From the NCBI GenBank assembly GCA_023957155.1, contig JAMLHK010000001.1:1-64000 (forward strand): a stretch of DNA of 64,000 nucleotides. The letters are read 5' to 3'. Made by a program: the position numbers and the translations under genes. The notes under the pieces were generated by a model, which worked only from the letters and a program-made list of their open reading frames with translations, did not search any database and was not told the DNA's origin. Below are positions 8,232-61,476 of this stretch, in pieces (within the stretch, counting starts at the first letter, position 1; each line of letters opens with the position of its first letter). This DNA is from Chitinophagaceae bacterium. Its GTDB lineage: Bacteria; Bacteroidota; Bacteroidia; Chitinophagales; Chitinophagaceae.

Positions 8232-11200
8232 TTAAAAATTACAGGAGAACCCGATAGTAAATGAGCGCTGTGCAGGATACGCCCCGTAATCAATGCCCTG
8301 CCTTAACAACTGCTCACCGTATGAGCTTACTTCAGGATCAAAACCCGTGTATTTGGTAAAGGTGAGCACATTGGTACCCGTTACAAACAACCTCGGGTTC
8401 TTGATCACGGCTATATCCGGAAACTGGTAAGAAAGCGCCAGCAGCTTCAACCGGAAATAGCTTCCGTCTTCCAGCATGGCAGAATTAATATCGGTAATAC
8501 CCCCGGCCGTCTTTTGTGTTCCGGGATAACGCGGATTATTGTGCGGGTTGGCAGGCGTCCACCTGTTGAGATACCAGTCTTCACTCTGGTTAAAGACCAT
8601 CCCTGCATAATTGATCATACCGCTGTTCAGGTAAAATTGGGTAAGGTTCAACACATCGTTGCCTACCGATCCGGTGAAAAACAGGTTAAGACCAAAATTT
8701 TTCCAGGTAATATCATTAGTCCAGCCAAAGATAAAATCCGGGCTCGACTTACCCAGCACCTGGCGGTCATCGGCATTAATCTTACCGCTCTTATCTAAAT
8801 CCTCATACTTCCAGGTTCCGGGACCATGGTCAGCAGCGCTGCCTGCGTAAGGATAATCAGGAGTGCCGTTTGTATTAAAATCTGATGGCTGTGCCAGCCC
8901 GGTTACCTTATACCCGAAAAATCTTCCCACTTCCTTGCCGGGCGTTAAAATAGCAGCAACACCTCCCTGCAGGTTCCCGCCGATAGTGGTATAATCTGAA
9001 GAGGTTCTATCGCCCAAGTTCAGCAAAATGGTTTTGTTATGAGAAAGGTTTAACCGGGTATTATACCTGAAAGATCTGGACCGGATGATATCCGCCTGCA
9101 GGCTCAGCTCCACCCCCCGGTTGCGCATAGAACCATAGTTGGCAATGATACTCCCAAAACCCGATTGCGCAGGCAATACCCTGGACTGCAACAGGTCTAC
9201 CGTGGTTTTGTTATAATAATCGAAGCTGACGCCCAGCCGGTTACTGAACACACTGAAATCTAATCCCGCATTGAACTGCCGTGTCCTTTCCCACGAAAGA
9301 TTGGCGTTACCCAAACCGGTGGGATATAACGCCGTAACCACCGTGCTGTTTGCACCTAATTCATAAAAACCACTCCCATACTGGGCCAGCGAGGAGTAGG
9401 GATTGATCGCCTGGCTCCCCGTCTCTCCATAAGATACCCGCCATTTTGTATTGGTAACGAATGTAACAGATCGCATGAAGTCCTCACTATCCATATTCCA
9501 CGCAAGCGCCACGGCAGGGAACAACCCGTACTTCTTGTTGGCGGCAAAAGGTGATGCCCCGTCAAGCCGTACAGAAGTGTTCAGCACATACCGGTCTTTG
9601 TACGAATAATTTCCCCGGAAAAATCCCGACTGCAGCGTACGTTCCTCTTTATAGGAACCTATACCCTGCGTTCTTGCACTACCGATATTATCCACACCAA
9701 AATAAGGAATATCAAAACCGGAAGAAGAGGTGTTGAGCAACTCGGTGGTTTGATTGTTATATTCAGCTCCCAGCGTTACATTCAGCTTATGGTCCTGCTG
9801 AAATGTTTTTTCATAAAGAAAATAACCATTCACATTGTAGCTGTAGGTATTAGACATGGTATTGCTACCCTTACCATTGACCCCGTTCCCGGCAGCAGTG
9901 GTAACAGGTAAAAATACCTGGCGGCGGGTAAGGTTCTGGTTACCTCCGAGCGTTACTACCAGCTTCAGATCCTTCGTAATGTTGAACCAGTTCTCTATAT
10001 TCAGAATGGAATAATCGTTTTTAGATATATCCGTCTTCCCATTCAGCTCATGGTAATAATTAGAAAAATAATAGCCGGCAAACTCACCGGGGAAACCCCA
10101 GCTATTGGTCCCGAGATAATCCTTGGCAACCGTAGGCGAAGCACGGATCCCATCCATCAGACCACCTGCATCGGGCCAGGCACGCCCCGTGGTGATTGCC
10201 CGGTTGTTTTTTTGACGAACAAAAGATAACTGCGTTTTTACCGTATACCAGCTGTTCACATCATTGTTCAGGTTTACCCTTAGGCTGCCACGCCCGTTAT
10301 CGGAGCTGATAATGGTTCCCTTGTCCAGAAGGTAATTACCTGAAATGTAATAAGAAGATTTGGGGCTTCCGCCTGATACACTCAATGAAATATCCTGCCT
10401 GAAGCTGGGACGCGTAATCAGGTCGAACCAGTCGGTATTGGCAAAAGTGGTATCCAGGTTGGGGAAGATTGGGGGTAATTGGTATAGTCCCCAAAATTCA
10501 TTGATGATCTCTGCATATTGCCTGCCATTCATCATTTTTACCGGGTTGGCCACTGCACCAAATGAAGTCTTATTCACTAATTCCACTCTTCCCTCTCCAC
10601 GTTTACCCGCCTTGGTAGTGATGAGCACCACACCATTAGCCCCACGTGAACCATAAATAGCCGTAGCCGATGCGTCTTTCAACACTTCCATGCTTTCAAT
10701 ATCGTTGGGATTAATACCATATAACCCGTTTTGGGCAAAAGACCCGGTAAAATTAGCCGTGGCTTCACGGTAAGGAGGCATCGGGAACCCGTCTATTACA
10801 TACAGGGGCTCATTGCTGCCGCTTAATGAGTTATTCCCCCTGATCCTTACCACGGCAGCCGCGCCCGGCTCGCCGGAAGTCTCTACTACCTGCACCCCGG
10901 TGGTCCTTCCCTGTAAGGCCTGGTTTATGGTTGAAATATTTGCATTTTTAAAGTCCTTTTCGGAAACCCTGGAAATAGAGCTTGCTATATCCTTCCTGCT
11001 TTGCACACCATATCCCACCACAACCACCTGATCCATCTCATTGACCACCTGTTGCAATTTTATGGATAGGTTTTTATTTTGCGTTACGGTTATTTCCTGC
11101 GTTACGTGGCCTACAAACGAAATCACCAGCACATCTCCGGGGTTGGCATCAATACTAAATCCGCCGTCCGCCCCGGTAGTTGTACCTTTTGCTGTTCCTT

Positions 11201-11687
11201 TAACGGCAATGCTAACACCGGCTAAGGATTCACCGGCTTCCGAAACCACCCTGCCATCAATTTGCAACAGAGGGATATCCTCTTCAGAGTTCACAGCATT
11301 TGTGGGAACCACTTTTTTTTCTTCCAGCCGGGTAGTAACCACAATTGTATTGTATCGTATCAGGAAGCTGGCCGGCTGATCCCTGAAGCAGTATTGCAAT
11401 ACTTCTGTAAGGTCTGCGTTTTTTACATCAATCGTAATCCGCTTGGTTTTTTTGAGCAGGTCGGGGTTGTATATGGCATCGTATCCCGTTTGGGCTTTTA
11501 CCATTTCAAATACCTGTTCCAATGAGATGTTTTTGCCTGAGAGGGAAACTTTCTGGGAGTAGGTTCTGGCACTTACGTGTAGACAGGCAACAAATAGCAA
11601 CAAAGCAGTTAATTTCATATAAAGCAATGTTTGCGCCCATACATACCTTTTTATAAAAAAGGCATTGCCATAAGCATTTTGGTTCAT
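8232..11687 (-). CDS. SusC/RagA TonB-dependent transporter with STN signalling domain (locus 1)
   Basis: 1151 residues. An N-terminal extension of 23 residues precedes an in-frame Met24 that starts a classical signal peptide (MKLTALLLFVACLHVSA); either could be the true start. Domains in order: secretin/TonB short N-terminal domain (about 46-118), carboxypeptidase-regulatory-like domain (141-213), TonB-box-like 'VVVVGYG' (221-227), plug ('YVIDGFPM', 'IESMEVLKDASATAIYGSRGANG'), then a long outer-membrane barrel ending in an aromatic (SCNF). The STN domain is the part that contacts FecR-type anti-sigma factors, and fecR and the sigma gene lie directly upstream. Function: TonB-driven import of an oligosaccharide captured with SusD. 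A predicted antisense RNA starts opposite its start codon. Confidence 0.95.
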   Translation of the reverse strand: MNQNAYGNAFFIKRYVWAQTLLYMKLTALLLFVACLHVSARTYSQKVSLSGKNISLEQVFEMVKAQTGYDAIYNPDLLKKTKRITIDVKNADLTEVLQYCFRDQPASFLIRYNTIVVTTRLEEKKVVPTNAVNSEEDIPLLQIDGRVVSEAGESLAGVSIAVKGTAKGTTTGADGGFSIDANPGDVLVISFVGHVTQEITVTQNKNLSIKLQQVVNEMDQVVVVGYGVQSRKDIASSISRVSEKDFKNANISTINQALQGRTTGVQVVETSGEPGAAAVVRIRGNNSLSGSNEPLYVIDGFPMPPYREATANFTGSFAQNGLYGINPNDIESMEVLKDASATAIYGSRGANGVVLITTKAGKRGEGRVELVNKTSFGAVANPVKMMNGRQYAEIINEFWGLYQLPPIFPNLDTTFANTDWFDLITRPSFRQDISLSVSGGSPKSSYYISGNYLLDKGTIISSDNGRGSLRVNLNNDVNSWYTVKTQLSFVRQKNNRAITTGRAWPDAGGLMDGIRASPTVAKDYLGTNSWGFPGEFAGYYFSNYYHELNGKTDISKNDYSILNIENWFNITKDLKLVVTLGGNQNLTRRQVFLPVTTAAGNGVNGKGSNTMSNTYSYNVNGYFLYEKTFQQDHKLNVTLGAEYNNQTTELLNTSSSGFDIPYFGVDNIGSARTQGIGSYKEERTLQSGFFRGNYSYKDRYVLNTSVRLDGASPFAANKKYGLFPAVALAWNMDSEDFMRSVTFVTNTKWRVSYGETGSQAINPYSSLAQYGSGFYELGANSTVVTALYPTGLGNANLSWERTRQFNAGLDFSVFSNRLGVSFDYYNKTTVDLLQSRVLPAQSGFGSIIANYGSMRNRGVELSLQADIIRSRSFRYNTRLNLSHNKTILLNLGDRTSSDYTTIGGNLQGGVAAILTPGKEVGRFFGYKVTGLAQPSDFNTNGTPDYPYAGSAADHGPGTWKYEDLDKSGKINADDRQVLGKSSPDFIFGWTNDITWKNFGLNLFFTGSVGNDVLNLTQFYLNSGMINYAGMVFNQSEDWYLNRWTPANPHNNPRYPGTQKTAGGITDINSAMLEDGSYFRLKLLALSYQFPDIAVIKNPRLFVTGTNVLTFTKYTGFDPEVSSYGEQLLRQGIDYGAYPAQRSFTIGFSCNF

Positions 11688-11694
11688 ACTTTTG
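11665..11694 (+). promoter_or_regulatory. Predicted antisense promoter at the susC start codon (locus 1)
   Basis: On the plus strand TTG (11665-11667), 19 bases, then TACTTTTG (11687-11694). This matches the Bacteroidota primary promoter (-33 TTG, -7 TAnnTTTG) in both boxes and spacing. It points away from susC and towards the hairpin-terminator at 11755. The same -7 box sits at the same place relative to susC in the other two loci. Confidence 0.5.
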
Positions 11695-11699
11695 TTAAG

Positions 11700-11791
11700 T
11701 TTTGATTTACGAAATTGTTTTTTAGTCGAAGCAACCTTAGTAGTTCAAAATCACCGGGGATCCTGTAACGGCAGGGTTCCCGTTTTGTTTT
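11700..11791 (+). ncRNA. Predicted cis-antisense RNA of the susC leader, DonS-like (locus 1)
   Basis: Predicted transcript of about 90 nt from the plus-strand promoter ending at 11694 to the T-tract at 11783-11791. It is complementary to the susC 5' leader. Support: correct promoter elements, a strong intrinsic terminator in the antisense direction, and the same layout at 33800 and 61386. In Bacteroides, DonS-type antisense RNAs lie at this site in polysaccharide loci and repress the sense operon (established for that genus). Transfer of that role to this locus is inference. Ends are estimates. Confidence 0.5.
11755..11791 (+). terminator. Intrinsic terminator, antisense to susC leader (locus 1)
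   Basis: An 11-pair stem (11755-11765 with 11772-11782) with loop TAACGG is followed by TTTTGTTTT. Two of the pairs are G59:U78 and U61:G76 (numbers within 117xx), which hold only in plus-strand RNA; in sense RNA they are C/A mismatches. On the sense side no T-run follows the hairpin. The structure therefore terminates plus-strand transcription. Confidence 0.65.
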
Positions 11792-11875
11792 AAACCGGTT
11801 ATTTGTTTGTAAATGGCTTATTTGATCATAGCATTTTTTTTAGGGTTATAGAAATATGTAAGATCGTAAGTTGAT

Positions 11876-13120
11876 TTAATGATTAGGCTGCATGATAATA
11901 TGCCTGCCCTGCCTTATAAACTTTACCCTGCCTTCGCTCTCCAATATCTCCAGCAGCTTTTCTATATTGTCTTTGCGGCTTATGCCCCCCGAGAACCGGA
12001 TAGCGCTGAGATCGCCTGCTGTTTCGATCTCCACATCATACCAACGTGCTATCTGGCGCATTATACCAACCACACCGGTATTGTTAAATTTGAATCTCCC
12101 GTTTTTCCAGGCCAACACTTCTTCTATATCGGGATGGCTTTTGTTAAACACGGCGCCGTTAACCGCTACACTTGCCTGCTCTCCCGGCACTATTTTCATT
12201 TGGGCGCCCGCTTTCCTTACCATTACCGATCCTTCCACTAAGGTCGTTCTTATCGCATCCTCATCAGGGTAGGCGTTGATATTAAAATGAGTACCCAGTA
12301 CCGTTACTTCCATCCCGCCTGTTACACCCTCACGCGGAATAACGGAAACCCGGAACGGCTTTGACTTATCCCTCGCTACTTCAAAATAAGCTTCTCCTGT
12401 TATGGTTACCTTCCGCTCCTTACCCGTAAAAGCGGTAGGAAAGCTGATGGATGAGGCGGCGTTCAGCCACACGGCCGTTCCATCCGGTAATACAATTTGG
12501 TACTGTCCGCCACGGGGCGTGGTGATCGTGTTAATGGAAATAGCCTGTCCGTCTGCATTCACAAGCTTTGATGCATCATATACCAGCCTGCCGCCCCGGC
12601 TTAATATGTCAACATTTCCCTGTTCTTTAATAAGATCCTGCATGGTGCTGTCTAATACTACCTGCGATCCGTCTGAAAGTGTCAGCACGGCTTTGTCGCT
12701 ACCCGGCAGTATGGTATCCATTGCCGCTACCGGCTCATCTGCGGGATGCCTGGCAGCGGTTCCTGCAAAAAACCAGGCGGTTCCTGCAATAGCTGCCAGC
12801 AATGCAGCGGCAGCAAGCCATTGTGCTGCTCTCTTGCTTAAGAAACGCCTCACAGCAGGTGATCCGGCAACCGGCAGGCTGAGACCCGCTTTTTCAAAAA
12901 TATGTTGTATGCGCAAGGCGGTATCTGCCTTTTCCATCTCCAGCAACGCATCGCCCAGCTTTTCATCGTCCAGCAGCTTTTCAAATAATACCCGGTTTTC
13001 TTCCCGGCTCTTTTTCCATTCCTCCAGCAGTTGTATTTCTTCTTCAGAAATACTGCTATCCCGATATTTCCGGATCAAACCGGCAATCCATACAGACTGC
13101 TGCACCTCTTTTTCTGTCAT
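11876..13120 (-). CDS. FecR-type anti-sigma factor (locus 1)
   Basis: 414 residues. The cytoplasmic N-terminal region (1-99) holds the sigma-binding part ('RKYRDSSISEEEIQLLEEWK'). One membrane segment spans about 100-119. The periplasmic FecR domain contains 'TITTPRGGQYQIVLPDGTAVWLNAASSISFP' (in part), 'VTITGEAYFEVARD' and 'VLGTHFNINAYPDE'. The C-terminal DUF4974 domain ends in 'EGRVKFIRQGRHIIMQP'. It relays occupancy of the STN domain of the adjacent SusC to the sigma factor encoded 82 bases upstream. The order sigma-fecR-susC-susD is the classical arrangement for regulated glycan uptake. Confidence 0.93.
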   Translation of the reverse strand: MTEKEVQQSVWIAGLIRKYRDSSISEEEIQLLEEWKKSREENRVLFEKLLDDEKLGDALLEMEKADTALRIQHIFEKAGLSLPVAGSPAVRRFLSKRAAQWLAAAALLAAIAGTAWFFAGTAARHPADEPVAAMDTILPGSDKAVLTLSDGSQVVLDSTMQDLIKEQGNVDILSRGGRLVYDASKLVNADGQAISINTITTPRGGQYQIVLPDGTAVWLNAASSISFPTAFTGKERKVTITGEAYFEVARDKSKPFRVSVIPREGVTGGMEVTVLGTHFNINAYPDEDAIRTTLVEGSVMVRKAGAQMKIVPGEQASVAVNGAVFNKSHPDIEEVLAWKNGRFKFNNTGVVGIMRQIARWYDVEIETAGDLSAIRFSGGISRKDNIEKLLEILESEGRVKFIRQGRHIIMQPNH

Positions 13121-13202: not shown

Positions 13203-13799
13203 CTAATGGTGAATCCATACGGAAAAGACGATCAACAAAAGGGGGTTCTTCTGCTTCAGCCATTGCCTTAACAAAGCCAGGGCTTTGCTTTTTTGATTGC
13301 GGACGGTTTGGTGGGAGAGGTTCAGATGGGCGGCTATGGCTTCGTTGCTCATCTTTTTATAATGGCTGAGTATGAATATTTCACGCATCTTAGCAGGCAG
13401 GGCATCCACAGATTTCCGTATTTCAGCCAGCAGCTCCGAATAGATTATTTCCGCTTCATCACTATCTCCGCCTTCATTCCCATACAATTGTATAAAGGTT
13501 GCCGTTCGTGTTGCTTCCCGTTGCCTGGATCGTACTACATTGATACAGCCATTACGAACCGATGTATACAAAAAGCCTTTTACTTCACCGAAACCGGAAA
13601 ATTGTGCCCGCCGCTCCCATAATTTCATAAATACATCCTCTACAACATCTTCAGCCTCTGCACTGCTTATACGGGCTACCCGGCAGGCATACCTGCCAAG
13701 CACAGGAAAATATATCCGTATGAGATAATGAAAGGCGGGGCTGTCGCCCTCTTGCAGAAGCCGGAAGCAATCATCGTCATTACAGCAATCCTCCTTCAT
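13203..13799 (-). CDS. ECF RNA polymerase sigma factor (locus 1)
   Basis: 198 residues. Sigma region 2 includes 'RISSAEAEDVVEDVFMKLWERR' (about 42-65). Region 4 has the helix-turn-helix 'MSNEAIAAHLNLSHQTVRNQ' near residues 150-170, preceded by 'LPAKMREIFILSHYK'. The C-terminus is hydrophobic. It belongs to the sigma-70 family used with FecR anti-sigma factors. It directs transcription of the susC operon when released by FecR. No clear TAnnTTTG box was seen in the 70 bases upstream. It is the first gene of locus 1. Confidence 0.93.
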   Translation of the reverse strand: MKEDCCNDDDCFRLLQEGDSPAFHYLIRIYFPVLGRYACRVARISSAEAEDVVEDVFMKLWERRAQFSGFGEVKGFLYTSVRNGCINVVRSRQREATRTATFIQLYGNEGGDSDEAEIIYSELLAEIRKSVDALPAKMREIFILSHYKKMSNEAIAAHLNLSHQTVRNQKSKALALLRQWLKQKNPLLLIVFSVWIHH

Positions 13800-33794: not shown

Positions 33795-33799
33795 CATTG

Positions 33800-33888
33800 T
33801 TTAGGTTAAGTAATAAGCAGTCATGCCCGTTAATCATTAGCCTGAATAAAGCCGGGTAAGGGTCCAATCTTCGCCCGGTTTTTATTTT
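33800..33888 (+). ncRNA. Predicted cis-antisense RNA of the susC leader, DonS-like (locus 2)
   Basis: About 90 nt from the box at 33787-33794 to the T-tract at 33879-33888. It aligns with the locus 3 RNA early on (GTTTAGGTTAAGTAATAAGC against GTTTTGGGTTAATGAATAAA) and before the hairpin (TTAGCCTGA against TTACCTGA). Ends are estimated from the elements. Evidence is structural and comparative only. Confidence 0.45.
33848..33888 (+). terminator. Intrinsic terminator, antisense to susC leader (locus 2)
   Basis: Stem of 33848-33857 with 33873-33882, including G51:U79 and U57:G73, then a mismatch and an inner three-pair stem, followed by TTTTTATTTT. The G:U pairs hold only in plus-strand RNA. On the sense strand the hairpin is followed only by CTTTATT. 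Confidence 0.55.
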
Positions 33889-61385: not shown

Positions 61386-61476
61386 TTTTGGGTTAATGAA
61401 TAAACAGTTCAGACAATTGTTTTTACCTGACTCAATTCCTGCCGGATCCCGGAGCGAACGGGGTCTGGCTTTTTAA
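61386..61476 (+). ncRNA. Predicted cis-antisense RNA of the susC leader, DonS-like (locus 3)
   Basis: About 90 nt from the -7 box to the T-tract after the hairpin at 61441-61469. It shares sequence with the locus 2 RNA and, in the middle, with locus 1 (AATTGTTTTTACC against AATTGTTTTTTAG). Distance from box to hairpin is 60 bases, against 57-60 in the others. Ends are estimates. Confidence 0.45.
61441..61474 (+). terminator. Intrinsic terminator, antisense to susC leader (locus 3)
   Basis: 11-pair stem, GCCGGATCCCG (61441-61451) with CGGGGTCTGGC (61459-61469), loop GAGCGAA, then TTTTT. Pairs G44:U66 and U47:G63 (within 614xx) hold only in plus-strand RNA. No T-run follows in the sense direction. 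Confidence 0.65.

Follow-up and report, generated by a model that had tools for sequence, protein, structure and literature searches.

Does the DNA between a susC gene and the fecR gene upstream of it also code, on the opposite strand, for an antisense RNA directed against the susC leader? The question arises at locus 1 of the window (the whole 64,000-nucleotide stretch of Chitinophagaceae DNA analyzed here), where the minus strand carries genes for an ECF-type sigma factor (13203–13799; Sigma70_r2 and Sigma70_r4_2), an anti-sigma factor FecR (11876–13120; PF04773 and PF16344), a SusC sugar importer (8232–11687; STN, CarboxypepD_reg-like, Plug and β-barrel domains), which is the presumed target, and a SusD. 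The original prediction had placed on the plus strand, at the susC ATG, a TTG-N19-TACTTTTG element and, 60 bases past the box, a hairpin of 11 pairs, two of them G:U, followed by TTTTGTTTT; both elements are confirmed. The predicted antisense promoter (11665–11694, plus strand) consists of a −33-like TTG (11665–11667), a spacer of 19 bases and the −7 box TACTTTTG (11687–11694). As the susC ATG reads CAT on the plus strand (11685–11687), this box overlaps with the start codon of susC. On the same strand, the RNA predicted at 11699–11791, of about 92 nt, would lie opposite positions −12 to −104, approximately, of the susC leader and would comprise (i) a 5′ hairpin, P1 (11699–11751), which begins at the predicted +1 (11699) and which the original prediction, correct for the terminator hairpin, had overlooked in describing a single hairpin; (ii) the terminator hairpin, P2 (11755–11782), with arms CGGGGATCCTG (11755–11765) and CAGGGTTCCCG (11772–11782) forming 11 pairs including two G:U pairs, or 12 pairs if a further U:G is counted; and (iii) directly after P2, the T-tail TTTTGTTTT (11783–11791). 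Both hairpins are supported by folding and by the 65 homologs described below.

Folding of the 92 nt from 11700 to 11791 yields −31.2 kcal/mol, compared to −17.0 ± 3.1 for shuffled sequences (z = −4.66; none of 200 shuffles equally stable). The longest plus-strand frame across the RNA has 33 codons and a TTG start, which makes a noncoding RNA the more economical interpretation. In four same-genus orthologs of locus 1, the TTG and TACTTTTG are invariant, the T-tail differs by at most one base in each, and box, hairpin sequence and T-tail are nearly constant while the spacer past the terminator diverges. Note that part of the adjoining susC coding stretch (alignment columns 97–142) is equally unchanged, and that the needs of translation could account for conserved bases around the susC start codon. 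We consider it very probable that locus 1 encodes a real antisense RNA.

The SusC frame has two in-frame starts in the interval 11616–11687. The first ATG, the complement of 11685–11687, lies under the antisense −7 box; the second, the complement of 11616–11618, opens by eye a typical signal peptide. In the homologs, codon positions 1 and 2 just past the first ATG appear by eye more conserved than position 3, and the first ATG may thus be the real start.

Locus 1 had been proposed to be one of three loci of a single design, and loci 2 and 3 of the window indeed share its layout. The second RNA copy lies at 33799–33886 (plus strand; 67.3 bits, E = 1.6e-12, fold z = −4.42) and the third at 61386–61476 (plus strand; 66.8 bits, E = 2.1e-12, fold z = −4.24), as scored by a covariance model, R2, built from 65 copies that include these two and from which locus 1 is absent. 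In an unfiltered search of the whole window, R2 places loci 2, 3 and 1, in this order, at the top, the next match reaching 17.4 bits. With 29.1 bits (E = 4.8e-4 over the window), locus 1 is a divergent copy, and filtered genome searches miss it. A search of the whole window against Rfam 15 at gathering scores returned no match, and none for any of the three copies; at loose limits, three matches appeared within 11600–11900, all far below their own gathering scores, and were rejected.

The same genome contains 45 full-length SusC genes and 24 FecR_C matches. The starts of 40 of these 45 genes were examined; by position, 21 have an upstream fecR and 19 do not. Antisense-strand terminators occur in 16 of the 21 FecR-type leaders (1.4 expected from shuffles) and in none of the 19 others (0.33 expected), and sense-strand terminator-like matches in five and none, respectively. 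The five FecR-type leaders that fail the strict antisense terminator test are L008, L011, L013, L032 and L040: L011 and L032 show a hairpin by eye, and L008 and L040 have almost no gap. Similarly, the box TAnnTTT[GA] is found at the first in-frame ATG of 17/21 FecR-type susC genes (missing in L008, L013, L036 and L040) versus 0/19 of those without FecR, and the exact TAnnTTTG in 12/21 versus 0/19. Ten own copies, including all three window loci, are more stable than their shuffles, with z-scores from −3.35 to −6.04. The antisense strand folds better than the sense strand in 17 of the 18 own copies that have the hairpin (sums of −581 and −397 kcal/mol). Only L016 departs from this, the two strands of L001 being close to each other, and P2 taken alone is more stable in the sense strand in L001 and L018. 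In L022 (1080–1219), an additional GC-rich hairpin seems to be inserted into the 5′ arm of P1.

A first covariance model, R1, was built from five own copies with the promoter left out. As MAFFT aligned P1 poorly, a script chose the five-copy subset with the most consistent pairs, a choice that favors structure. Over the whole genome, the top 11 matches of R1 (E from 3e-15 to 0.46) all lie antisense in fecR–susC gaps, five of them being model members that match by construction; three weaker matches (E = 3–5) fall elsewhere. A search over family genomes, of the kind suggested along with the original prediction, gave, at E ≤ 0.01, matches in 12/12 genomes of the genus and in 45/117 genomes of the family. 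The latter represent 38 of 100 genera, and a single genome contains as many as 29 matches; in the family-wide search, strict filters lose weak matches.

The genomic context was inspected for 58 matches (L049–L106), three of which are own copies in the model. All 58 are antisense, with a susC match beginning 11–122 nt away on the opposite strand. A fecR is present on the far side in 57 of them (L093 is the miss), at a distance of at most 341 nt except in L085 (732 nt) and L097 (1322 nt), a tight link to FecR. The exact TAnnTTTG occurs within 25 nt upstream of 43 matches, even though the model excludes the promoter, and a slightly looser box lies 4–5 nt from the RNA in 45. As for the proposed promoter, the −7 box is thus widespread, but the −33 TTG does not hold as a family-wide feature: at a spacing of N19–20 it is only weakly enriched, in 11/58 inspected matches (about two expected, hand estimate) and in 11/116 loci selected by a DNA pattern (about four expected). 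In L067 and L108, only 5 nt separate the end of the fecR match from the RNA, which fills nearly the whole gap; there, the susC sense promoter would have to lie in fecR or within the RNA region, unless susC is transcribed by read-through from upstream. Under strict criteria, an automatic search detected the terminator in 81 of 117 pattern-selected copies, and no strongly conserved motif was seen between T-tail and fecR in these 81.

Covariation in homologous loci, whose absence had been named beforehand as a reason to give up the reading, is present in both hairpins: in the 65 copies, P1 covaries, all 11 pairs of P2 have changed on both sides, and so have 21 of the 22 pairs overall. The number of cells changed on both sides is 211, compared to 69.7 ± 5.6 in shuffled and 36–44 in slid controls; these counts lean towards structure, since the alignment was fitted to it, and the shuffle controls ignore the relatedness of the copies. 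The same alignment indicates the strand. The original prediction had argued from the wobble pairs that the plus strand is transcribed, and the 65 copies contain 200 G-U cells against 22 A-C mismatch cells, pointing to the antisense strand, albeit in matches to a covariance model that favors G-U pairs by construction. A further set of loci was selected by a DNA pattern for the promoter and the 5′ arm only. Among 116 of these, the antisense strand folds better in 112, with a mean difference of −8.9 kcal/mol. In control stretches, antisense is better in 59/114 and 80/113 on the susC side, the latter stretch, which leans antisense, lying inside susC, and in 32/110 and 18/110 on the fecR side, i.e. 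with a lean towards sense. In sum, the sequence-level predictions of the earlier reading that were open to test appear well supported.

What would such an RNA do? Most likely, the locus 1 RNA is a cis-antisense repressor of susC with a DonS-like layout. The transcript would begin near 11699, driven by a promoter of the Bacteroidota housekeeping type with its −7 box over the susC start codon, and would end at the P2 terminator, short of fecR. This RNA of about 92 nt would adopt the P1 and P2 hairpins and would be exactly complementary to the susC mRNA leader. By pairing with this leader, the RNA would block translation and/or destabilize the transcript, so that susC would come on only once induction by the ECF sigma factor outstrips the supply of antisense RNA; the RNA would then form a third layer of control above sigma factor and FecR. 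The promoter-like box, the two covarying hairpins, the strand and the fecR–susC link are supported by the sequences; from these we infer transcription, repression and action by leader pairing. That repression by leader pairing is the main action of the RNA seems to us probable, and a block of susC translation is the best reading of this pairing, by analogy with DonS and with FopS, the latter acting close to susC start codons.

The main rival to leader pairing is transcription collision or promoter interference, in which antisense transcription would hamper sense transcription and the RNA product itself would have no role. The antisense promoter is indeed located at the start codon of susC and directed against sense transcription, and at some loci, such as L067 and L108 with their 5-nt distance to fecR, the RNA occupies nearly the entire gap. 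P1, however, is dispensable for termination and yet covaries, which argues for a role of RNA structure or stability; we regard this explanation as rather unlikely.

The hairpins could also work in the sense strand, as an element of the susC mRNA leader governing, for instance, ribosome access, the antisense features being by-products. Mirror-image hairpins are present in the sense leader, five of the 21 own leaders carry sense terminator-like matches and CAAAnnTATG could be a translation-start context, but such an element is hard to reconcile with the better antisense folding of 17/18 own copies and 112/116 pattern-selected loci, the excess of G-U over A-C cells, the T-tails on the antisense strand and the absence of the box at the ATG of all 19 susC genes without FecR, and we judge it quite improbable. 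Slightly less credible still is a terminator that merely shields fecR from stray antisense transcription leaving susC: P2 does lie between the two genes, oriented towards fecR, but this role leaves unexplained the box 4–5 nt from the RNA start in 45/58 matches, as well as P1 and the near-invariance of the whole unit in the four orthologs.

Antisense control of susC is already known in Bacteroides. DonS is reported to act as a repressor of its susC locus in B. fragilis, through a mechanism called unknown (PMC7366714, PMC11697453), and B. thetaiotaomicron has 32 annotated PUL-associated antisense RNAs, some antisense–susC pairs correlating positively (PMC10994844). The RNAs described here are likewise antisense and divergent to a susC homolog. 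Their predicted lengths also compare well: DonS-type RNAs measure 78–128 nt (PMC7366714), versus about 92 nt between predicted ends at locus 1 and 72–128 nt in 18 own copies, 17 of which fall within 78–128 nt (L032 has 72 nt). A canonical housekeeping promoter is reported for 52% of the cis-antisense candidates of B. thetaiotaomicron (PMC7366714), and the same type is predicted for the present RNAs, with the −7 box in 43/58 inspected matches and 17/21 own FecR-type genes and a weak −33 box. Compared to DonS, as far as its description goes, the present RNAs occur in other Bacteroidota orders and have a conserved two-hairpin structure, a common 5′ arm and a location in fecR–susC gaps.

The FopS sRNAs of B. 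thetaiotaomicron offer a second comparison. According to PMC11697453, they inhibit the translation of susC-like mRNAs by acting close to the start codon, are about 65–70 nt long, are intergenic in 9 of 14 cases and antisense in four, have a single-stranded 5′ stretch ahead of the terminator, and are reported by their authors as deposited in Rfam. Like the present RNAs, FopS, as portrayed there, is a large paralogous family with a common 5′ part. However, the 5′ end of the present RNAs is paired in P1, in most folds and by covariation, and the strong matches inspected here lie, all but one, in fecR–susC gaps, whereas FopS RNAs are mostly intergenic in that account. Beyond Bacteroides, none of the titles and abstract openings listed, which leave out most subscription journals, describes such RNAs, and a Flavobacterium psychrophilum transcriptome lists 287 antisense regions, none linked to susC in the accessible part of the article (PMC9723704).

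In one genus, two genomes have a match to the Bacteroides-1 RNA, one of them above cut-off, and we take this genus to be Bacteroides-like. Examination of 24 of its 30 fecR loci, six matches inside SusC-length frames being left out, revealed a long downstream frame, which may be susC, at 22. In raw counts, the 22 gaps contain 11 antisense terminators and one sense terminator. Folding of nine of the 11, chosen for their terminator, gives the more stable structure on the antisense strand in every case. At E ≤ 10, R2 gives weak matches antisense in L288, L279 and L293 (E = 0.009–0.062) and L284 (2.3), and sense in L276 (0.049) and L270 (1.8). The layout is similar to that of the family RNAs. CATAnnTTT[GA] together with an antisense terminator is seen in the gaps L273, L282, L288, L279 and L293.

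With R2, matches were found over the order in 19/198 genomes, all 19 in the family of the window, and over the class in 14/395 genomes, 11 of them outside the family and eight of these in family f61. Both genes are in place in 32 of 34 further matches inspected, a set without the own-genome duplicates L140 and L142–L148. L126 has fecR only, its other side being cut by the contig end, and L136 (family f55), with neither susC nor fecR nearby, is likely a false positive and was rejected as a true copy. The pattern scan of named genomes returned at least 119 stretches, with susC in place in 114/119 (77/80 and 37/39 in the two subsets) and fecR in 110/119 (74/80 and 36/39); three susC misses and seven fecR misses lie near a sequence end (within 108 and 340 nt, respectively). 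L238 and L263, which have neither gene, fit the two or so chance matches expected from a hand estimate; they were dropped, and with them one locus too short for the strand test, leaving the 116 loci used above. Carriers among the 80 records listed, related bacteria of soil and water, include Chitinophaga, Niastella, Terrimonas, Flavihumibacter, Pedobacter, Mucilaginibacter, Sphingobacterium, Parapedobacter, Arcticibacter and Dyadobacter; the orders of Niastella (Chitinophagales), Mucilaginibacter (Sphingobacteriales) and Dyadobacter (Cytophagales) were confirmed.

Beyond what was described in Bacteroides, these findings contribute a structure of two covarying hairpins, a model for searches and carriers known by name outside that genus, with which the mechanism could be tested in cultivated environmental bacteria. 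They also point to an RNA layer, absent from Rfam 15 as far as the window copies go, in many sigma/FecR uptake systems of these orders. More tentatively, and with considerable doubt, a structured antisense RNA might be a built-in fourth part of the sigma/FecR/SusC module in Chitinophagales, Sphingobacteriales and some Cytophagales, with a possible cross-locus network ranking nutrient uptake: since the copies share their 5′ arm, the RNAs may also act on the susC mRNAs of other loci. Duplex energies between paralogs (trans mean of −41.8 kcal/mol, −31.9 for non-FecR leaders) were set aside as evidence for such trans action, because shared ancestry alone yields such values. Finally, near-identical RNA copies occur across families (L126 61–148, L096, L185 and L193), in genome G452, assigned to another family (f37), and in Chitinophagales/Chitinophagaceae records, reflecting either a mis-binned contig or a recent transfer.
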